Source: Deltaproteobacteria bacterium (GTDB lineage Bacteria > Desulfobacterota > BSN033 > UBA1163). From it: 34,050 bases of DNA. Made by a program: the position numbers and the translations under genes. Shown here in pieces: positions 23,213-33,608 of the stretch. Under the pieces are notes generated by a model. The model was not told the DNA's origin. It ran no database searches and saw nothing but the letters and a program-made list of their open reading frames with translations. The stretch covers positions 1-34,050 of the forward strand of contig JAGXTA010000022.1 in the NCBI GenBank assembly GCA_018333535.1, read 5' to 3'. Numbering within the stretch: the stretch's first letter is position 1; every line of letters begins with the position of its first letter.

Positions 23213-23270
23213 GTAGCGTCGGCATTTACTGCCGACGGATGGCATCGCCCCCAATAAATGAGGGCGCTAC
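23213..23270. repeat. Cruciform-type palindrome between glyQ and glyS
   Basis: Outer arms GTAGCG/CGCTAC enclose two hairpins, TCGGCA/TGCCGA (loop TTTAC) and GCCCCC/GAGGGC (loop AATAAAT-like). It ends 23 bases before the glyS start. Confidence 0.65.
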
Positions 23271-23293
23271 TGACCAAGGATAAAGGACCGAGA

Positions 23294-25357
23294 ATGAAAG
23301 AACTGCTTTTGGAGATCGGGACAGAGGAGATACCAGCCGGATTTATCCCGAAGGCTTTGTCCGATCTGAAAGAACTTGTGCAGAAAGAGTTTGAAGCCAA
23401 CCGGATCGATTTTAAGGGAATCCAAACCCTGGGAACGCCCAGGCGGATCGTTCTCTATATCGAGTCCGTTTCAGAGAAACAGAGAGATGAAGAGATAAAA
23501 AAGATAGGGCCTTCGAAAGCGGCTTCCTTCGATTCCAGTGGCAAGCCCACAAAGGCGGCGATCGGTTTTGCAAAAGGTCAATCGGTTCCTGTTGAATCTC
23601 TTGAGGTGATTCAGGCAGAGAAGGGAGAATATGTCTGTGCCATTAGAAGAGAGACCGGAAGACCGACCATGGAAATCCTCCCTCACGTTCTTCCCGGCGT
23701 CATTCTTTCCATTCCCTTTCAGAAGTCGATGAGATGGGCAGAGGGGTCGATCCGGTTTGCCAGGCCCATTCACTGGATCCTCGGCCTCTTCGGAGGAGAG
23801 GTCATCCCTTTCGAAATGGGGGATGTCCGGAGTGGAAATATCACGTATGGTCATCGGTTCATGCATCCCGATCCCATTACAGTGACGGATTTTAAAACCT
23901 ATTTGCAGAAGATGGGCGAGGCTTTCGTCATTGTCGATCCGGCCGAGAGAAAGAAAAGAATAGAAGACGGGATGACCCGGGAAGGAGCCAGGGTTTCCGG
24001 GAAAGTCTTAAAGGATGAGGAACTTCTCAACGAGGTTAACTTTCTGGTGGAATATCCTCTCCCCCTTTGCGGGAGTTTTGAGGAAAGATTTCTCTCCCTG
24101 CCAAAGGAGGTGGTCATCCATTCGATGAAAGAGCATCAGAGATACTTTCCACTGATAGACGACCATGGAAGATTACTGCCCCATTTCATCTGCATCAGCA
24201 ATATTGTCCCTAAAGATGAGAAGGTGGTGGTGAAGGGGAATGAGCGCGTCCTCAAGGCAAGGCTTTCCGATGCGGCTTTCTTCTTCGAAGACGATATGAA
24301 AATTACCCTCGAAAAAAGGGTGGAACTGTTGAAGAAGGTGGTTTTCCAGGCAAAACTTGGGACTTCCTACGAGAAGGTGATGCGATTTAAAAACCTGGCC
24401 TCTTTTATTGTGGAGCGCATCAATCCGAAACTCCGGCAGGCCGTGGAGAGAGCGGCCCTCCTGTGCAAGGCCGATCTGGTGACCGGAATGGTCGGGGAGT
24501 TTCCAAAACTTCAGGGGATCGTGGGCAGAGAATATGGACGTCTGTCCGGGGAAAAGGCAGAAGTTTACGAGGCGATCTATGAGCACTACCTGCCAGGTTT
24601 TTCGGGAGACCGACTGCCTTCGAGCCCTGTCGGGGATATTGTCAGCATCGCCGACAAAATGAATACGATCGTGGGTTGTTTTGGCGTAGGCCTTGTGCCA
24701 ACCGGAACAGCCGATCCTTTTGGCCTGAGGCGCCAGGCGCTGGGGATCATCCGGATCATCCTCGAGAAGGAATATTCTCTCTCACTGGGCGAATTGATTG
24801 AAGAGAGCGGCTGGCAATTGAACGAGAAGATGGAGCGACCTTTTACCGAATTGAAGACAGAGGTTCTGGATTTCCTCCGGATCCGCTACCAGAACTTCCT
24901 TCTCGATAAGGGATATCCTTTTGATGTGATCGAAGCTGTCCTTTCAACTTCCTTTGATCAACTGTTGGATGTCCAGCGCCGGATCGACGCATTAAGGGAG
25001 GCAAAAGAGTGGAAAGACTTCGAATCGATTGTGATCGGCTTTAAACGGGCGATGAATATCCTGAAGGGAGCGCCTTCAGGGAAGGGAATCGATCCGTCCC
25101 TCTTCTCCGAACCTGCCGAGCAGAATCTTTATCAATCGTTTCTTAAAGCCGGGGAAAGAATTGGTCTTCATCTCAGCAAAAAAGATTATCCTTCAGCACT
25201 TCTGGAGATGACCCAAATGAAGAAGCCGATAGACGACTTTTTCGATGGGGTGATGGTCATGGTTGAAGATGAGGCCATCCGGAATAACCGCCTCGCCCTC
25301 TTAGATGACATAGGCCAACTCTTCCTCAGATTCGCCGACTTCTCCAAACTTACATAG
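23294..25357 (+). CDS. glyS: Glycine--tRNA ligase beta subunit
   Basis: The protein has 687 residues. The ATG at 23294 follows AAAGGACCG and gives the standard MKELLLEIGTEEIPAGF start. GlyS contributes tRNA recognition to the alpha2beta2 enzyme. The N-terminal B3/B4-like part, an HD-like domain (VHSMKEHQRYFPL and SIADKMNTIVGCF) and the C-terminal anticodon-binding helices (ADPFGLRRQALGIIRI through the DALRE motif) are all present. The protein ends DDIGQLFLRFADFSKLT. A diverged second copy of the last 12 codons plus stop occurs at 26836-26874, beyond the next gene. See findings. Confidence 0.95.
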   Translation: MKELLLEIGTEEIPAGFIPKALSDLKELVQKEFEANRIDFKGIQTLGTPRRIVLYIESVSEKQRDEEIKKIGPSKAASFDSSGKPTKAAIGFAKGQSVPVESLEVIQAEKGEYVCAIRRETGRPTMEILPHVLPGVILSIPFQKSMRWAEGSIRFARPIHWILGLFGGEVIPFEMGDVRSGNITYGHRFMHPDPITVTDFKTYLQKMGEAFVIVDPAERKKRIEDGMTREGARVSGKVLKDEELLNEVNFLVEYPLPLCGSFEERFLSLPKEVVIHSMKEHQRYFPLIDDHGRLLPHFICISNIVPKDEKVVVKGNERVLKARLSDAAFFFEDDMKITLEKRVELLKKVVFQAKLGTSYEKVMRFKNLASFIVERINPKLRQAVERAALLCKADLVTGMVGEFPKLQGIVGREYGRLSGEKAEVYEAIYEHYLPGFSGDRLPSSPVGDIVSIADKMNTIVGCFGVGLVPTGTADPFGLRRQALGIIRIILEKEYSLSLGELIEESGWQLNEKMERPFTELKTEVLDFLRIRYQNFLLDKGYPFDVIEAVLSTSFDQLLDVQRRIDALREAKEWKDFESIVIGFKRAMNILKGAPSGKGIDPSLFSEPAEQNLYQSFLKAGERIGLHLSKKDYPSALLEMTQMKKPIDDFFDGVMVMVEDEAIRNNRLALLDDIGQLFLRFADFSKLT

Positions 25358-25581
25358 CCCTAAAGTGAACCCATTACCCTACCTTGATACCTTTTTCATG
25401 AAAAAGTATCACCTCACATATCCCCTCAGAAGTTATGGGTTGTTTAAATTAGCTACAACTTGTAACTCAGCCCTTTAGGGCTGAATTTTTCAGGGCTCCT
25501 GCGGCAGGGCCCTGAGTTACATATTCGACAAGCCGTTTTATCCCTCGTAACTGAGGAATTACGACATCACAAAAAATTCTA
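25358..25581. other. Intergenic region with two hairpins downstream of glyS
   Basis: No gene is present. A near-perfect hairpin, TGATACCTTTTTC/GAAAAAGTATCA with one bulged base, lies at about 25389-25414. A larger one with arms TGTAACTCAG (25461-25470) and CTGAGTTACA (25512-25521) contains inner hairpins AGCCCT/AGGGCT. Either could end the glyS transcript, although neither is followed by a long T-run. Confidence 0.55.
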
Positions 25582-25610
25582 TTGACAATCAAGGAATTAC
25601 TTTGTATTCT
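25582..25610 (+). promoter_or_regulatory. Sigma70-type promoter for the ATPase gene
   Basis: TTGACA (25582-25587), a 17-base spacer, then TATTCT (25605-25610). The predicted start of transcription, near 25617, leaves a leader of about 45 bases before the TTG start. Confidence 0.7.
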
Positions 25611-25661
25611 TTTTGCATAATTCAATTAGAATAATTCACAATGAATAATCAGGAGGCTTAA

Positions 25662-26780
25662 TTGCGGAATCCATTTACATTAGGGATAGTCCAGCGGAAG
25701 GATTTCTGCAATCGAGAGGCGGAAATAAAGGATCTCCTCCGCTATGCGAGAAATGGGGATAATGTTATTCTCTTCTCTCCGCGGCGGTACGGTAAGTCAT
25801 CGCTCATAAAAATAGTTTTGGAACTGCTTGAAAAAGAGGGATTCTTGGCAGTGTATGTCGATCTCTTCCCTGTCTCCTCAGAACAAGACTTTATTTCAAG
25901 GTTTTCTTCCGGGGTATTAAAGGGAATTGGAAAAGGGGTTGATCCTCGGAGCCTTGGAGACAGGATCGCAAATCTCTTTAAGAGATTAATTCCAAACATT
26001 GAAGTCAAGCCTGATGGCTATGCTCTCTCCGTTAAATTTGATCAAACGGCAGAAACGGGATTACTTCTTGATGACCTGATGGAAGGCCTTTATGCTCATG
26101 TCAAGAGGAAAAAGCTAAAGGCATGCATCGCACTCGATGAATTTCAGGAGATTACAGAACTTCCTGAATCCAAAAAAATAGAGGGGATATTGAGGTCTCA
26201 TATTCAGTTTCATAAGGAGATAACCTATTTTTATGTGGGAAGCCGTCGACGAATACTGAATGATATGTTTTTAAATAAGAGCCGTCCTTTCTATAAGAGC
26301 GCTTTTTCGTATACATTGAAGGAGATCGCCAGAGAAGAATTCGTTTCCTATATTGAAAAGAGGTTTAAAGATACAGGGAAGACATGTTCCGAAGAGATTG
26401 CTAAAAAGATGTATGATACGGTAAGAGGCTATCCCTACTATGTCCAGAAGCTGGCGTCGATTACATGGGATATGTCTGCAAAAAAATGTGATAGCAAGAT
26501 ATTAGAAACTGCCCACCATGTTTTAATCACAATGGAAACGAATGATTTCGAAGGGATCTGGAGTGGCCTCACCTTGATACAGAAGGCGGTATTAAAAGCA
26601 ATTGCCAAAGAGCCTACTGCCTCACCGTATGGAAGAGAATTTCTTGAAAGACATCGCCTATCGATAGGAGGCACACAAAGGGCCATAAAAGCCCTTTTTT
26701 CCAGAGACCTCATCGAGAAGGATGATAAAAATATTCACAGATTAACAGATCCCGTAATGGAAACGTGGCTGCGTGAGTAG
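25662..26780 (+). CDS. AAA/STAND-type ATPase (archaeal ATPase-like family)
   Basis: The protein has 372 residues. It starts at a TTG preceded by AGGAGG with 5-base spacing. FSPRRYGKSSLIK is the Walker A (Lys45). CIALDEFQEI near 154-163 is the Walker B with catalytic Asp-Glu. VGSRRRIL is a sensor-like strand, and FYKSAFSYTLKEI and a C-terminal winged helix (TLIQKAVLKAIAKEPTASPYG and GGTQRAIKALFSRDLIEKDD) follow. This layout matches the archaeal-type ATPases related to STAND NTPases, which often occur as lone mobile or defence-associated genes with no known partner. It has no nuclease or integrase domain. It is more AT-rich than glyS, has its own promoter, and lies between two copies of the glyS 3' end, all consistent with acquisition. 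Confidence 0.8.
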   Translation: MRNPFTLGIVQRKDFCNREAEIKDLLRYARNGDNVILFSPRRYGKSSLIKIVLELLEKEGFLAVYVDLFPVSSEQDFISRFSSGVLKGIGKGVDPRSLGDRIANLFKRLIPNIEVKPDGYALSVKFDQTAETGLLLDDLMEGLYAHVKRKKLKACIALDEFQEITELPESKKIEGILRSHIQFHKEITYFYVGSRRRILNDMFLNKSRPFYKSAFSYTLKEIAREEFVSYIEKRFKDTGKTCSEEIAKKMYDTVRGYPYYVQKLASITWDMSAKKCDSKILETAHHVLITMETNDFEGIWSGLTLIQKAVLKAIAKEPTASPYGREFLERHRLSIGGTQRAIKALFSRDLIEKDDKNIHRLTDPVMETWLRE

Positions 26781-26835
26781 TTACCGAGAAATGGCCATTC
26801 TGAAAATCCCCTAAACAATTGTCCCCTTCGTTTCC

Positions 26836-26874
26836 CTCCTTCTCCGAATCGCCGACTTCTCAAAACTCACCTGA
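26836..26874 (+). pseudogene. Diverged copy of the glyS 3' end (last 12 codons plus stop)
   Basis: Read in one frame, this segment encodes LLLRIADFSKLT followed by a stop. The true glyS end at 25319-25357 encodes LFLRFADFSKLT and stop. The DNA agrees at 30 of 39 positions, including an unbroken TCGCCGACTTCTC, and most differences are at third codon positions. Resemblance stops on both sides of this segment. Confidence 0.7.
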
Positions 26875-26939
26875 TCCCCAACGATACCCTTCACCTCCAG
26901 TGGCCTACTCCTCAATACCCTCTCTCCTGGGAGACTATA

Positions 26940-27135
26940 TCGTAAGGCCGTTTATGGTTCGATAGAGCCTTTCCTGAGCGAACCGTTCACCCTTCGAGAG
27001 CCTCAGGGCGAACGGTTTTTTCCGAATGTCCTGAGCGAAGTCGAAGGAAGGGCTCACCACGAACGGACCACAGCACATTAAAAATCAATTACTTAACCGT
27101 TCGTCCTGAGCGTGTCGAAGGGCGAACGGTGAATT
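26940..27135. repeat. CGAACGGT/ACCGTTCG inverted-repeat cluster with CTGAGCGAAG units
   Basis: Contains AACCGTTCACCCTTCGAGAG then CAGGGCGAACGGTTTTTTC (hairpin plus T-run, a possible terminator at about 26979-27024), CCTGAGCGAAGTCGAAGG, and later AACCGTTCGTCCTGAGCGTG and TCGAAGGGCGAACGGT. This is a dispersed CCTTCGA...TGAGC type repeat. Between 26781 and 27178 no gene other than the glyS fragment is seen. Confidence 0.6.
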
Positions 27136-27178
27136 ACGACACAGTCTCTGGCAGGGGTGAGGGGGCGTTTAACATAGG

Positions 27179-27207
27179 TTGACAACTTTACTTAGGTGTG
27201 CTACATT
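27179..27207 (+). promoter_or_regulatory. Sigma70-type promoter of the CopG/PIN toxin-antitoxin operon
   Basis: TTGACA (27179-27184), a 17-base spacer and TACATT (27202-27207). The leader is very short, with AAGGAGG at 27215-27221 and ATG at 27228. Confidence 0.65.
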
Positions 27208-27227: not shown

Positions 27228-27446
27228 ATGAATCAGACCCTGACCATTAGAATTCCTGACGAGTTAAGAGAGGAACTTCAGGAGATAAGCAGAGCAGAAG
27301 GAAAACCTATCAGCGATCTGGTGAGAGAATCGTTACGGAAATACATCGCTATCTATCGATTCCGAAAACTTCGCAATATGGTTCTCCCTTTTGCAGAAGC
27401 CCAGGGCATCCTTACAGATGAAGATGTCTATAAAGAAGTCTCATGA
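27228..27446 (+). CDS. Ribbon-helix-helix (CopG-family) antitoxin
   Basis: This 72-residue protein starts at an ATG 6 bases after AAGGAGG. The N-terminus QTLTIRIPDELREELQEISRAEGKPISDLVRESLRKYIA (read as its beta strand LTIRIP, helix ELREELQEI and helix SDLVRESLRKYI) is a standard ribbon-helix-helix DNA-binding domain. The C-terminal tail would bind the toxin. Such antitoxins dimerise on their own promoter and repress the operon. The stop codon overlaps the start of the PIN toxin gene (ATGA). Confidence 0.85.
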   Translation: MNQTLTIRIPDELREELQEISRAEGKPISDLVRESLRKYIAIYRFRKLRNMVLPFAEAQGILTDEDVYKEVS

Positions 27447-27850
27447 GAGTGATCCTCGATACAAATGTGATTCTGGCCGCATTTGCCAGCAGAGGATTAG
27501 CCAATGCTGTATTTGAACTCTGCCTCGAAAAGCACGAAATTATTATCAGCGAACACATCCTGTCTGAAGTTCGAAGAAATTTACAGAAAAAATTGAAAAT
27601 GCCCGAAGAAAAGATCAAGAGGATCATCCAATACCTCAGAGAGTTTTGCACCATAACCGCCTATAAGAGATTAGACAAAATGGTTTGTCGAGACCCGGAT
27701 GATGTTAAAATTTTAGGTCTTTCTGAAGTCGCAAAACCGGATTATATCATTACAGGAGATATGGACCTCCTTGCCCTGAAGGAATTCCATTCCATACCCA
27801 TCATCACTCCGAGAGAGTTTTGGGAAATATCAAAAAGCAAAAGGACATGA
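27443..27850 (+). CDS. PIN-domain toxin (COG1569-type)
   Basis: This 135-residue protein is a PIN-domain ribonuclease of the putative toxin component family. Acidic residues of the active site are Asp6 in VILDTNVILAAF, Glu in SEHILSEVRRNL (about 42), the CRDPDDVKIL acidic pair near 83-86, and TGDMDLLAL near 105. It ends with the family's IPIITPREFWE. As a Mg-dependent RNase it is expected to be neutralised by the RHH protein encoded just upstream with a 4-base overlap. Length and all motifs are normal, so the pair looks functional. Confidence 0.85.
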   Translation: MRVILDTNVILAAFASRGLANAVFELCLEKHEIIISEHILSEVRRNLQKKLKMPEEKIKRIIQYLREFCTITAYKRLDKMVCRDPDDVKILGLSEVAKPDYIITGDMDLLALKEFHSIPIITPREFWEISKSKRT

Positions 27851-28086: not shown

Positions 28087-28413
28087 GAATTAGATATAAA
28101 AGGTGGGTAATACTTGAATTGATAAAGACTTTAGGGAAAATTATTTCACCTCACAAGTCCTTACTCCAACATGCTCATCAGAGTTGATGATTACTAATTG
28201 AAAGAGTGGTTAACGAGTCTGTAGAAAAACCCCATCGCTACAATTAAGGGGGGATTTTCGGGGGTCTCTTGACCCCTTCCCTGTATGAGATCGTTGTACA
28301 CAGAGCATCCTGAGAGGTTGCATTTTCTTCCAACTCACCGGTTGCGCGCGAGATTGACTTTTCCTACAGGTTCAACGTTTTAAATCAGCGGTGCCTGGAG
28401 CAATCGGCCAGAG
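28087..28413. other. Intergenic region, possible remnant of a small mobile element
   Basis: No gene is seen. TCTGTAGAAAAA (about 28211-28222) and TTTTCCTACAGG (about 28359-28370) form an imperfect inverted pair (10 of 12) about 150 bp apart, as would the ends of a decayed insertion sequence or MITE. No transposase coding is visible between them. Confidence 0.3.
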
Positions 28414-28743
28414 TTATGTGTCCTTCGTCTCATCCCATATACTCCCTTGCCAGCCGCTTATAAATCCTTTATCCGGACATACTGGACACATCCAGCGTAT
28501 TGTCCCAGGGTCGTCTTCATGAAGTGCAGCTATGATACGCCCCACACAGCGCCGGTGTTGTGGGCGTCTACGACATTGAACGTCCGTTGTCTCGATGCCA
28601 TTTTTGTTGTTTCGGCTTGTTACCGCTTCAATGATGGATCCTAAATAGTCTAACAGCAATTCGGCGCGACGAGGAATATCGATTGCCGGTAGACCATCCT
28701 GATCAAGGAAATGCTCAATATTTGTATACCAGGTGTTCACCAT
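28414..28743 (-). CDS. Conserved hypothetical protein with C-terminal zinc-ribbon-like motif
   Basis: This 109-residue protein starts at an ATG with a poor ribosome binding site. The N-terminal half (YTNIEHFLDQDGLPAIDIP then RRAELLLDYLGSIIEAVTS) is helical. The C-terminal half has RRRPQHRRCVGRIIAAL, then IRWMCPVCPDKGFISGWQGS and IWDE. I recognise the pattern CRRRPGxxxCxGxI...IxWxCPxCxDxGxIxxWxGTxWD from a widespread family of unknown function. The cysteines may bind zinc. Here the last CxxC is followed by Pro-Asp-Lys rather than the usual Gly-Asp, a small deviation. It points the same way as the restriction-modification genes but is 93 bases away from them and not obviously part of that operon. 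Confidence 0.6.
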   Translation of the reverse strand: MVNTWYTNIEHFLDQDGLPAIDIPRRAELLLDYLGSIIEAVTSRNNKNGIETTDVQCRRRPQHRRCVGRIIAALHEDDPGTIRWMCPVCPDKGFISGWQGSIWDETKDT

Positions 28744-28836
28744 AATAGTCAGATTCTATTTTACATAAAGTGGGATTTCACCTATCTCTATGGATCATAG
28801 CGGAATAGCAGTCAGGTTGAGCGTCTTGACGTATCT

Positions 28837-29574
28837 TTAGATCACTTTTTGGACTGAGGTGTAGAGGGCAGGCCAACGTCCTTGACGCAATCGGAATTTA
28901 GTGCCGTGATTATGCCCTGTTCTTGCATCAAAATCGATTAATACATGGCCATCTTCAATGCACTTCACAAACTTATCGAAGGAAAAACCAGCTAAAATAT
29001 ATAGGCTTTCGTATCTGAAATACTCATGTCTGCTCTCGACCTTCGTGTCTGCAATAACATAAAAACAATTTCTTATTTTAGTACCAATCGCATATTTCAG
29101 ATCATCAAATCCCCAATATGGTTCGGGGTTTATTGGTCCGAGCCCGATTCTCGTATCAACAGAAGATAACCAACCCAAAATCTCTAAATTTGCTCGATCT
29201 GCTTTGGATGAGTCAAAAACAAATCGGATTTTCATCGCGCTTCTATCAAGAACTACCGTGAAACCTCGGTTTGTAAAGGCAGTAGCACTTGTAGTCGAAC
29301 GAAAACTCATTTCAGTTTTTGGGTACTTTATACCAGCTTGGGCGTGCGGCCAGCCATAGAGAGGCAAAAGGACTTTCGACACTATTTTTGCAGCTATTGG
29401 AGAAGGTTCAATGTGCTTCAGAGTTATCAGTGAAGCTGAATGCTTCCTTTGCCCTTTCAGCTCCCACTCTCTGGCGTTGGGTATGGGGAGATTGTTCTCT
29501 TGAATTCCAAGCAATTGTTCGAGCGTGTTGCCAACGGTCCCATCACTCTCAAAACTCTTAATCGCTAATCTTAC
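28837..29574 (-). pseudogene. MvaI/BcnI-like restriction endonuclease, 5'-truncated
   Basis: The open frame reads GNTLEQLLGIQENNLPIP, then EWELKGQRKHSASLITLKH, FRSTTSATAFTNRGFTVVLD, and further WGFDDLKYAIGTKIRNCFYV and DGHVLIDFDARTGHNHG. This is the order of motifs of the MvaI/BcnI restriction endonuclease family, where D-x4-ExK forms the metal site. ExK is present (WELK), but the position of the expected Asp (usually P-D before it) is Asn (PNAREWELK). The frame is open to 29574 without a normal start before GNTLEQ; the first usable codon, TTG at 29514, would cut off conserved residues. About 15-20 N-terminal residues appear to be lost. It overlaps the end of the upstream nuclease gene. Confidence 0.55.
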
Positions 29575-30602
29575 TTAACTCTGAGTGTTTCCATTAATTT
29601 CAGACTTTTATGTAACTGCATTTGGATTGTAAATTTAAAACCTTCTGGTGTTAAATAAACATTTTGGTTAGTCTTCGCCAACAAGCCTAAATCAACCGCA
29701 TAATTAGAATACATTCTTGTCGCATTATATTTTGCTTTATCAGTTTGCCAATCAAAAAACTTTCCGGAATGATATGTAAAATATTCATAAAGATGACTCA
29801 TTGGAACAGGATAAGTGTTTTTTGCCAATGCAAAGGTAGCTTCAACAACTGATGCAATACCTAATATTACAGAAGATTCATAAGGATTATGTATGACAAA
29901 ATGTTTTATTAATTCTGCTTGTTCCTCACTTAAACTGTCTTGATAATGTAAATCTCGTGCTTCAATATATTTTTTTCCTAATTCGGTTAATGTAATATCA
30001 TCAGAATTTGGCATCCAATTAATTAATCTCAACTCGCTGGCAAATTTTATTTTGTTATATAAAGTTTTTTTGGAACCACCGACAATATTTTGTAACCCTT
30101 TAAGATTGATAATTTCGTTCAATTCATAGATGAATTTATTTATTAAATGAAGATTCCAGATTCCTATATCAATTGGTTTAATCTCAACAAAGGAAGCAAT
30201 GGGTCTAAGATTGTCATAAAAATAGCTAAGAATTTCTTCAGGGTTATATTCTAAACAGGAAACACCTTCCTGTACTGCAATTTGTCTTTGGTTTTCACGA
30301 ATTGAGGGGCAAAGCAAATAGGGTTGAATTTCACACTGCAATAATTTCCCTGACTTCTGAAAATCAATCAGCTCTTTCTTATACTGCAAAATTTGCTGAA
30401 TAAATTTATTGTGGAATGAAGTTACTTTAAGCTCAATTAAGAGAAACTTTGTTTGATAGGTATAGAGAAGATCGAGCCTTCCTGATGGAATTAATATTTG
30501 ACGGCCAATTAGTCTTGGCTCATCATCAAGATTTAAAATCTTTTTGGTCAATAGAGGAGCACTTACTAAAATATCCTCGATTTGTGTTTCTCTAATATCC
30601 AT
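29571..30602 (-). CDS. NucS-like (PD-(D/E)XK) endonuclease with C-terminal helix-turn-helix region
   Basis: The protein has 343 residues. The N-terminal domain ETQIEDILVSAPLL, then GRLDLLYTYQTKFLLIELKV (Asp44, Glu57, Lys59) is the D...ExK site of NucS/DUF91-type nucleases, followed by QQILQYKKELIDFQ. A middle region (GSKKTLYNKIKFASELRLI) resembles a winged helix. The C-terminal part, which includes SSVILGIASVVEATFALAKN and YSNYAVDLGLLAKT, is conserved-looking but unfamiliar. By position, right after a DNA methyltransferase, it is probably the restriction enzyme of the pair. ATG 30602 is used, while TTG at 30608 overlaps the stop of the preceding 69-residue gene. Base composition is very AT-rich, unlike the core genes. 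Recognition site unknown. Confidence 0.65.
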   Translation of the reverse strand: MDIRETQIEDILVSAPLLTKKILNLDDEPRLIGRQILIPSGRLDLLYTYQTKFLLIELKVTSFHNKFIQQILQYKKELIDFQKSGKLLQCEIQPYLLCPSIRENQRQIAVQEGVSCLEYNPEEILSYFYDNLRPIASFVEIKPIDIGIWNLHLINKFIYELNEIINLKGLQNIVGGSKKTLYNKIKFASELRLINWMPNSDDITLTELGKKYIEARDLHYQDSLSEEQAELIKHFVIHNPYESSVILGIASVVEATFALAKNTYPVPMSHLYEYFTYHSGKFFDWQTDKAKYNATRMYSNYAVDLGLLAKTNQNVYLTPEGFKFTIQMQLHKSLKLMETLRVK

Positions 30603-30604
30603 TT

Positions 30605-30814
30605 TCAATCGTCTATATAGGGATAAAATGTCAACTCATCAGTAATTGTCATTCTCTCAACAATCCATTGCCGTATAACATCTCTTACTTTTCCAATCAT
30701 TTCTATATCCCATTCAATATTTTTGTCAGTAGGATTAACCCTTTGAACAAGTTGAAAAATGGCATTATCAACAAAATCTTGCCTATCAATTTGTTTATCA
30801 GTTAACTCTTTCAT
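30605..30814 (-). CDS. Small protein within the restriction-modification operon
   Basis: This 69-residue acidic protein (KQIDRQDFVDNAIFQLVQRV, NPTDKNIEWDIEMIGKVRDV and ITDELTFYPYIDD) starts at an ATG with an AGGGGGCA site. It overlaps the end of the methyltransferase gene by 17 bases, and its stop codon adjoins the next nuclease start. The tight overlaps on both sides show it is a real, co-translated gene. No domain is recognised. It has no helix-turn-helix typical of C-proteins, so a structural partner of the methyltransferase or nuclease, or an inhibitor, are possible roles. Confidence 0.7.
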   Translation of the reverse strand: MKELTDKQIDRQDFVDNAIFQLVQRVNPTDKNIEWDIEMIGKVRDVIRQWIVERMTITDELTFYPYIDD

Positions 30815-31715
30815 AACATTGCCCCCTATTTAACTTTTTTGGCCATCCGGAAATTCCTATCTGATTTACAAGTTTCGTTCTATCCCAAATAATTATGTTT
30901 CTCAATTCGTATCCTCGTCTTCGAAGTTCTTCTATGAGTGACACATGAATCGTTATTCTTTTGTTTTTCCACCACATGTCAGGCACATTTATTACACAAT
31001 GTCCCTTGGGTTTTAGGAGAGTTAAAAGAGACTGAAAGATGTCACCCATCATATGGGTATATTGTTCAATGGGTAGCGTTCCAAGATCACGAGGGTCTTG
31101 GGAATACTGTTCTATTTTCCCAAGTTGCTCATTATCTCTGAATCTTCTGGACTTGTTCTTTCTGGCTCTATTGAGCAGGTTTGCATAGGGTGGTGATGTC
31201 CAAATTAAACTGACTGTGTTGGGTTGGAGATATTTTGTAATATTCTTGGCATCATCTTGGATAGCAACCTGTCGCGAGCGATTAAACAGGTTTGTATGTT
31301 CACGAAGCCTTTTTTCACAAAGACTAATGTATTTAGGTTGAAGATCGAATCCTACCGCATTCCGATTAAGATCAGTGGCAGCGACAAGGGTTGTTCCACT
31401 TCCAACGAATGGGTCAAGGACTAATTCACCTTGGTGTGTGAATAGCTCTATTACCTTCTTGCATAAGGAAATCGGGAAGGTTGCGGGGTGTACGTTCTTA
31501 TCGCGAATATCTCTTGATTCATAGAAGAACTGCCAGACACCGAGTTGGCTTTTCAACCAATCCTTGGCGGTCATGCAGTTAATGTGAGTTTTTGGGCAGT
31601 TACAGGTTCTGGTATACCCAATAGAGAGGGAAGTCTCATATTCTACAGAACCTTCCCTCACAATGTAGTCAGTGGGCTTATATTCCTCTTTTTTTCTTGG
31701 CTTCACGGTTTTCAT
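30798..31715 (-). CDS. DNA methyltransferase (SPPY type, N4-cytosine or N6-adenine)
   Basis: The protein has 305 residues. Motif I is VLDPFVGSGTT (AdoMet binding, 101-109), preceded by RDIRDKNVHPATFPISLCKK, and motif IV is WTSPPYANL (173-177), followed by KPKGHCVINVPDMWW. SPPY usually indicates N4-cytosine methylation but is also found in some N6-adenine enzymes. Motif I comes before motif IV. The C-terminus ends GWPKKLNRGQCYERVN; relatives I recall continue with a conserved ITMG..FEYLLDFWRP segment, so this one may be short at its C-terminus. It is the first gene of a four-gene minus-strand operon and would protect host DNA from the following nuclease. Confidence 0.85.
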   Translation of the reverse strand: MKTVKPRKKEEYKPTDYIVREGSVEYETSLSIGYTRTCNCPKTHINCMTAKDWLKSQLGVWQFFYESRDIRDKNVHPATFPISLCKKVIELFTHQGELVLDPFVGSGTTLVAATDLNRNAVGFDLQPKYISLCEKRLREHTNLFNRSRQVAIQDDAKNITKYLQPNTVSLIWTSPPYANLLNRARKNKSRRFRDNEQLGKIEQYSQDPRDLGTLPIEQYTHMMGDIFQSLLTLLKPKGHCVINVPDMWWKNKRITIHVSLIEELRRRGYELRNIIIWDRTKLVNQIGISGWPKKLNRGQCYERVN

Positions 31716-31728
31716 AGTTGCAAAGACT

Positions 31729-31777
31729 AGTTACATGTTGAAGTAACTATAATGTCCTTTTCTATGGAGTCGACTCC
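31729..31777 (-). promoter_or_regulatory. Promoter/operator region of the restriction-modification operon
   Basis: On the minus strand TATAGT (31751-31746) is a good -10 box. At the -35 position there is instead a perfect 12-base palindrome GGAGTCGACTCC (31766-31777). Just after the -10 lies a second inverted repeat, AGTTAC-8-GTAACT (31729-31748). Two palindromes around a -10 suggest binding of a dimeric repressor or activator. No C-protein gene is seen. Confidence 0.4.
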
Positions 31778-31896
31778 GCCGTTAATTTACGAATGAAATA
31801 TACATCTTTCGGCAAAACCTGTCAAACATTGATTTCAGGAAGCAATTAACACTAAATATTTTGAGAGTTTTTCAGCTCACTCACTAACTTTTATGG

Positions 31897-32130
31897 TTAA
31901 ACCCAGATGATTTTTATTTCTTTTTCAACTGCTTTAAATTCAGGATCCCCGGTATAAAGCTCTGCTTTTTGTAACCGTGCCAGCGCCGCAGCAAAACAAT
32001 CCGCATAAGCCATCGGTTTTGTAGCTTTCATGCGCGCAGCTTCACGGGTGAGTTTTTTATCCGCATCATCAAGGCTGATCGGAAAAGATTCGATCAACCG
32101 CTCAATTTCCTGAGTTTCTTCCTCTCCAAA
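31897..32130 (-). pseudogene. VapC-like PIN toxin, 5'-truncated paralogue
   Basis: The frame reads FGEEETQEIERLIESFPISL, then TREAARMKATKPMAYADCFA, KAELYTGDPEFKAVEKEIK and IIWV. It aligns along its whole length with the C-terminal 76 residues of the intact VapC at 32972-33373 and shares MAYADCF and YTGDPEF. The N-terminal part with the first catalytic Asp is missing; upstream the frame soon meets a stop and shows no resemblance. No antitoxin gene precedes it. It is thus a broken copy, about 75 % identical to the intact one at DNA level by eye. Confidence 0.75.
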
Positions 32131-32231
32131 CTGAACTGATAAAATATATTTTTTGAACCAGATTGTTTACGAAGTTGCTGCAGGATGATTCGTCCTGTGC
32201 CTGCGGGGCAGGCAGGCGCTGGAGTGATTTA

Positions 32232-32820: not shown

Positions 32821-32971
32821 AATTATATCCTTTTAATTCCCATTCGCTCTAAGCGCGACTGGACTGTAATATACACCCTTTTTAGTTTTTTTGGAAGTAA
32901 ATATTTCAACGGGCATGGGAAAAAACATTACTAAATGTTTTGCTACTTGATCTCAAACACTGATTTTTCAG

Positions 32972-33373
32972 TTAAAGCCAAACAACCTTAATCTCTTTTT
33001 CAATCGCTTTGAATTCAGGATCGCCTGTATAAACCTCTGCCTTGTTTAGGCGGGCGAGGGCGACTGCAAAACAATCAGCGTACGCCATCGGTTTTGTAGA
33101 CTTAATGCGCGCCGATTCACGGGTCAGTTCTTTATTAGCCTCGACGAGCGTGATCGGCAGTGTCTGTATGAGTTGCTCAATTTCCTGGGCTTTTTTCTCC
33201 CCAAACCGCCTTGCGATCTGGTAGTAAACTTCTCCCCAGTTGACGATGCACATTAAAAGAGGTTTGGAGGACTCGACGGCTTTCTCGAAGAGGTCGATCA
33301 TCTTTTCGAATCCGGGTTCTTGCTCAAGGTAACACAGGAGCGCCCAGCTATCGAGAACCTTTACGGCGGCCAA
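32972..33373 (-). CDS. vapC: VapC-type PIN-domain ribonuclease toxin
   Basis: This 133-residue PIN protein has the four usual acidic residues: Asp8 in VKVLDSWALL, Glu48 in NWGEVYYQ, Asp100 in MAYADCFA, and Asp118 in YTGDPEF. It should be a Mg-dependent RNase. The gene overlaps the AbrB-type antitoxin gene upstream by 26 bases, so translation is coupled. All motifs are complete, unlike the truncated copy at 31897-32130, so this is the working member of the two. Confidence 0.88.
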   Translation of the reverse strand: MAAVKVLDSWALLCYLEQEPGFEKMIDLFEKAVESSKPLLMCIVNWGEVYYQIARRFGEKKAQEIEQLIQTLPITLVEANKELTRESARIKSTKPMAYADCFAVALARLNKAEVYTGDPEFKAIEKEIKVVWL

Positions 33374-33608
33374 TTTTCTCCTCCTCCCGCTTAAGATCTT
33401 CTCTTCTGGTTTTTTCTAATGCCTTGACAAGTCCTCCTCCCTTGAGGATGCCGCTCATCTTTTGAAAGTATTCTCTATTTAAGGGACGAAGGATAATCTC
33501 TCCTTTTCGCTCTTCGACATAAAATTTGGTTCCCTTCTTGATTCCCAGGCGATGTCTGATTTTGGCCGGGATGACAACCTGCCCCTTGATGGTCACTGCC
33601 GTTTCCAT
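33348..33608 (-). CDS. vapB: AbrB/MazE-fold antitoxin (VapB-type)
   Basis: This 86-residue protein begins METAVTIKGQVVIPAKIRHR and LGIKKGTKFYVEERKGEIIL, the swapped-hairpin SpoVT-AbrB DNA-binding domain. The C-terminal helix (EYFQKMSGILKGGGLVKALE) would block the VapC active site. Its ATG is preceded by AAAGGAGG with 5-base spacing. It should repress its own promoter at 33638-33666. Antitoxin first and toxin overlapping is the usual order. Confidence 0.88.
   Translation of the reverse strand: METAVTIKGQVVIPAKIRHRLGIKKGTKFYVEERKGEIILRPLNREYFQKMSGILKGGGLVKALEKTRREDLKREEEKIGRRKGSR

Follow-up and report, generated by a model that had tools for sequence, protein, structure and literature searches.

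A lone ATPase gene between two copies of the glyS 3′ end in a Desulfobacterota genome: evidence for probable import anchored in a conserved gene

The window, the whole stretch of DNA analysed (34,050 nt of contig JAGXTA010000022.1), belongs to G000, a draft genome of Desulfobacterota type comprising 4.39 Mb on 192 contigs. Its closest named relatives are metagenome-assembled Deltaproteobacteria/Syntrophaceae, e.g. RBG_16_49_23. Downstream of glyS lie a lone AAA+ ATPase gene, a second glyS 3′ end and a toxin–antitoxin (TA) pair, arranged as follows:

23258–25357, + strand: glyS (glycyl-tRNA synthetase beta chain), the host gene, by ORF and homologs; mostly G006-like
24963–25357, + strand: terminal part of glyS, of G003-like ancestry and putatively imported, by the mosaic test; breakpoint about 25,000
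25319–25357, + strand: copy 1 of the glyS 3′ end, functional, TAG stop, by alignment and profile scan
25358–25430, + strand: spacer with palindrome CTTTTTCATGAAAAAG; ~70 % homology, downstream of glyS in G014 only
25431–25562, no strand assigned: dispersed repeat insertion, REP-like; many copies in G006, none at the G014 locus
25552–26867, + strand: transferred segment with 96.7 % identity to G014; right end within copy 2
25570–25661, + strand: promoter/operator region, partly conserved with G008 (ATPase 67 % identical)
25662–26780, + strand: lone AAA+ ATPase with a C-terminal winged-helix-like region, PF01637; TTG start, 372 aa
26836–26874, + strand: copy 2, displaced glyS 3′ end fragment, in frame, by alignment and profile scan
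26875–27197, no strand assigned: DNA after the displaced end; starts TGATCC like G006 and G011, then REP-like repeats
27228–27446, + strand: RHH antitoxin, antitoxin half of the TA pair (27228–27850)
27443–27850, + strand: PIN toxin, toxin half of the same pair

The distance between the two glyS ends includes the repeat insertion at 25431–25562, which the G014 locus lacks. The REP-like repeats within 26875–27197 have more than 60 matches in the genome. Spacers of the locus hold dispersed repeat families at 26931–27150 (many copies in G000) and at 25431–25562 (in G006). Past the TA pair are a MvaI/BcnI-type restriction gene and a methylase (28.8–31.7 kb), followed by more PIN-type modules.

The recurrence of the glyS 3′ end, as claimed in the initial annotation, is confirmed. 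The end at 25319–25357 agrees with 26836–26874 at 30 of 39 bases and 10 of 12 residues, against a maximum of 24 and a mean of 21 in 500 shuffles of the downstream 8.7 kb. In a position-weight scan, with a profile made from the glyS ends of 15 genomes including that of the window, copy 2 scores 44.9 bits vs a maximum of 0.8 in shuffled sequence. The match and the profile score, both above the shuffles, indicate that the duplicated end is real. Copy 2 retains the reading frame and stop codon (SLLLRIADFSKLT, then stop), and a 12-bp core, CGCCGACTTCTC, is identical in the two copies, which are 77 % alike overall; a weaker extension reaches 60 nt at 70 %. Within this pair alone, codon-position bias is weak (3, 0, 4). 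The ATPase gene between the copies is AT-rich, as had been stated, with ~40 % GC vs ~50 % in glyS.

The ATPase matches PF01637 (ATPase_2) at 49.9 bits, over a gathering cut-off of 33.2, and its Walker A and B motifs, RRxGK and DEF, are invariant in 18 homologs. Its profile matches the PF01637 structures 2FNA, over almost the full chain length, and 2QEN, over the last three quarters, the C-terminal region included; unlike those proteins, the window ATPase is bacterial, encoded by a lone gene and moved with a gene-end fragment. A single-sequence structure prediction was unusable (pLDDT 40). Homologs are patchy (41 of 395 genomes of the phylum). None was found in viral contigs, plasmid and phage records gave only homologs of 22–32 % identity, and a defence library gave a single marginal match. 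Two phage records, MT837124 and MT837444 (~7 kb, faecal), carry homologs of 27–28 % identity and may represent small plasmids or mobile elements of another kind. A palindrome is located close to the start codon in 14 of 33 homolog promoters at p≤0.05, with that of the window ATPase itself below significance. The promoter palindromes suggest that the homologs may be self-regulated via the winged-helix-like region, with diversified operators. A role in stress, defence or addiction would fit the mobility of the gene and its TA company. Palindromes of differing sequence near the start codons of homologs are seen in L041, L043, L048, L111, L115, L121, L128 and other loci.

Both checks proposed for the locus, for empty sites and for other genomes with the ATPase beside glyS, were carried out. 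In G006 (glyS protein 91 % identical) glyS ends in ...AAAACTCACCTGATCC and runs straight into the TA pair (91 % nucleotide identity) that follows copy 2 in the window, and copy 2 shares this ending. The empty site and the common ending thus place the ATPase between glyS and an older TA cassette. The RHH/PIN pair is the older of the two cassettes at the locus, and a PIN-gene remnant lies directly 3′ of glyS in G003 and G007. The nearest relatives do not have the ATPase and their junctions are clean. The native sequence was therefore displaced and not lost, as copy 2 and the TA pair behind it are still present. The cassette arrangement occurs in 2 of the 15 genomes examined, and a search of other families for extra glyS ends downstream of glyS left G000 and G014 as the only clear cases.

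G014, of a different genus, has the same ATPase in the corresponding place, with glyS on one side, a glyS-end fragment on the other and the TA pair beyond. With the empty sites, this arrangement makes it most likely that the initial annotation was right in proposing a replacement 3′ end brought with the insert and the original end beyond it. Between the two genomes the ATPases are 97–98 % identical (dS 0.064, dN 0.012, dN/dS 0.18), vs dS values of 2.0 for glyS, 1.6 for the RHH gene and 1.7 for the PIN gene. An ATPase dS so far below those of glyS and PIN indicates that the cassette moved recently; judged by these rates, the gene is a recent transfer under purifying selection, set in an old and diverged neighbourhood. 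The 97 % segment spans from the promoter (about 25552) to an abrupt stop within copy 2 (about 26867), and the genomes differ beyond. The 73-bp spacer after copy 1 has a counterpart in G014 only, at ~70 % identity, and the disparity with the ATPase requires either that the donor was mosaic or that two or more events took place. G014 carries a further in-frame glyS end, its third (KVFLRIDDFSKLT, then stop), directly behind its TA pair (G014:C173, about 33458–33494; 7610–7651 of L077, reverse complement), which makes a serial array of glyS, ATPase, glyS end, TA pair and glyS end.

The glyS gene of G000 is G006-like over most of its length and G003-like over the last ~350 bp. Informative sites near the end favour G003 over G006 by 31:0 and 17:4, and a mosaic test on the sites distinguishing G003 from G006 gave a maximum chi-square of 66.8 (permutation p<0.001). 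Replacement of the terminal segment by homologous recombination would be the simplest reading. However, a further breakpoint, against G009, lies at -1263; the end breakpoint is thus not uniquely tied to the cassette and is taken as support, not proof.

Analogous brackets occur elsewhere in G000. A scan of 793 genes, in which the 3′ end of each gene was sought downstream of it, found, besides the glyS cases, duplicated ends of an ABC-F gene enclosing an AF2212-like/PIN pair (L146, 1995–3294), duplicated ends of mobB enclosing a HicB-type TA module (L174, 18010–19200) and a bracketed YefM/YoeB pair (76 bp, 91 %). An unbiased direct-repeat scan of 1.28 Mb, about 29 % of the genome, added a cheR 3′ end duplicated around a PIN gene (52 bp, 87 %; L277, 8165–9109), a DUF433/DUF5615 pair (36 bp), an MqsA-type module (63 bp), two ORF6N genes (47 bp), a DUF1016 nuclease gene and an epimerase 5′ end around a DUF5674 gene. 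The cargo within brackets is mostly TA modules. Among PIN loci sampled by profile, 8 of 30 are bracketed, and among 271 other small genes 6 are (Fisher p = 8e-6), these six being mostly DUF5615, ORF6N and DUF5674 genes; a conservative count, leaving aside low-complexity, dispersed or paralogous repeats, retains 4 of 30 (p = 0.011). Flanking repeats in L164 and L151, those of the thioredoxins in L174 and those of the VapC pair of the window were set aside as tandem paralogs, L303 and L312 were discarded as low-complexity sequence, and several others proved to be dispersed repeats. In a literature search with incomplete journal coverage, no account of TA modules bracketed by gene ends was found.

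The preferred reading, with a probability of roughly 0.6, is that the cassette was imported by homologous recombination in glyS on one side, was joined on the opposite side illegitimately or through short homology, and displaced the native end. A segment from a related bacterium, consisting of a glyS end, a brief spacer and an ATPase gene complete in itself, would have entered by homologous recombination with glyS as the anchor. On its other side, illegitimate recombination, or recombination over very short homology, would have fused it to the glyS end already present. This would have shifted the native end (copy 2) downstream together with all that lay behind it, the TA pair first, and left glyS intact. 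The recent move of the ATPase-plus-fragment unit between genera, into the same place, would have come later, with the right crossover within the glyS fragment. The right flank of the ATPase does join inside the glyS end, and use of the fragment by the later transfer would mask the original junction. Repeated events could build arrays behind core genes, with TA modules as the commonest other cargo.

Homology-facilitated illegitimate recombination has been proposed for orphan immunity-gene arrays at Vibrio T6SS and Rhs loci (PMC5361080). The homologous anchor on one side that defines such a process is found here in the mosaic glyS end, its exclusivity weakened by the other breakpoints. As in the Vibrio arrays, a conserved gene appears to act as anchor, the old end and its cargo are displaced downstream and serial arrays form; unlike those arrays, the anchor here is an intact housekeeping gene, the cargo is a lone ATPase or a TA module and just a short gene end is left behind. 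The glyS pattern is similar to these T6SS arrays of orphan genes and also has features in common with ‘insertion with long target duplication’.

That mechanism, in which a widely staggered break leaves the gene end copied on both sides of the insert, is the main rival. It was proposed by Nobusato et al. 2000 for restriction-modification genes in Helicobacter, as cited in PMC3031569 and PMC2654758, and it shares addiction-type genes, long variable direct duplications and the lack of a transposase with the present loci. Direct duplications of variable length (36–245 bp) at unrelated sites, TA-type cargo and empty sites holding a single copy are all in its favour. However, over six pairs of gene-end copies 24 of 39 differences fall at third codon positions (p=0.0003, slightly optimistic since two pairs share one sequence), which indicates that most copies accumulated their differences while serving as functional gene ends in separate lineages, before juxtaposition; duplication followed by decay of a single target would show no such bias. 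At the ABC-F locus, the DNA behind the orphan end matches the native downstream sequence of G004 at 71 of 72 positions whereas behind the gene-adjacent end the DNA is orthologous but diverged (52 of 73), so that the two resemble different species; the coding part of the orphan end is nearer to G006/G007 than to G004. The codon bias and these downstream versions speak for an orthologous gene end having been imported together with its cargo, the glyS and ABC-F copies differing as orthologues do and not as copies of one target. Some loci may nevertheless be plain duplications, given that the mobB copies share a derived end unseen in relatives, which is compatible with a copied target, and that the cheR copies have no codon bias. 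At glyS, the 39 bp alone are too short for a donor to be assigned to either copy. Target duplication is a doubtful, though appreciable, alternative for the glyS locus.

Vertical inheritance would require that the ATPase stood behind glyS in the ancestor of the family and later disappeared from most lineages, a rearrangement having left the duplicated end. G008 does have a 67 % identical ATPase about 1.7 kb behind glyS, diverged to a similar degree as glyS, but G008 has no second glyS end. With glyS at dS 2.0 between G000 and G014, an ATPase dS of 0.06 is incompatible with vertical descent, and the closest relatives lack the gene with clean junctions, making this explanation improbable.

Integrase-borne elements at gene 3′ ends carry a replacement gene end and leave the original end past the insert, and the glyS locus shares both features. 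A site-specific element with the glyS 3′ end as attachment site and a recombinase acting in trans could also account for insertion at the same place in two genomes, for the identical 12-bp core and for the G014 array of three in-frame copies. The initial annotation had noted that the insert encodes no integrase, and a search with the tyrosine integrase profile (PF00589) bears this out for the whole contig; the seven integrase genes of the genome are all on other contigs. Additionally, the copies are 77 % alike, the arrangement is confined to 2 of 15 genomes, the left spacer is poorly conserved and the right edge of the shared segment falls inside the duplicated gene end. The off-contig integrases, and the identical architecture at other genes with unrelated ends, make such an element unlikely. 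Those loci have no common defined att sequence, and their unrelated sequences and cargo, together with the mosaic glyS end, equally oppose a larger integrative element that collapsed, as the initial annotation had suggested.

Distant homologs of the ATPase are also bracketed, in L048 (genome G054; ~220 bp, a gene 5′ end) and L111 (genome G377; 68 bp), both from other families of the phylum. That the ATPase promotes its own transfer, as a mobile cassette of the ATPase alone that targets gene ends, is very unlikely. Chance resemblance over 39 bp is ruled out by the shuffles and the profile scan, and an assembly artefact, conceivable in draft, metagenome-type assemblies, is opposed by the agreement of the separately assembled G000 and G014 loci despite differing flanks, so that the probability of either is minimal.

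At issue is how chromosomal TA modules and lone ATPase genes are disseminated with no transposase involved. If such modules are imported with a conserved gene as anchor, the displaced in-frame ends of core genes would be a readable scar of acquisition, revealing both the anchor gene and the order of arrival, and they lend themselves to automated searches of any genome. Should other lineages show the same pattern, the import route of such modules would become directly testable.

Further downstream, the block at 28150–31830, which holds the MvaI/BcnI-type restriction gene, the methylase and a weakly NucS-like gene, is absent from G006, where only about 390 bp lie between the sequences that flank it in the window. 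Two PIN toxin genes in tandem, one of them truncated, follow at 31851–32131 and 32930–33206, with a nucleotidyltransferase-like gene between them.
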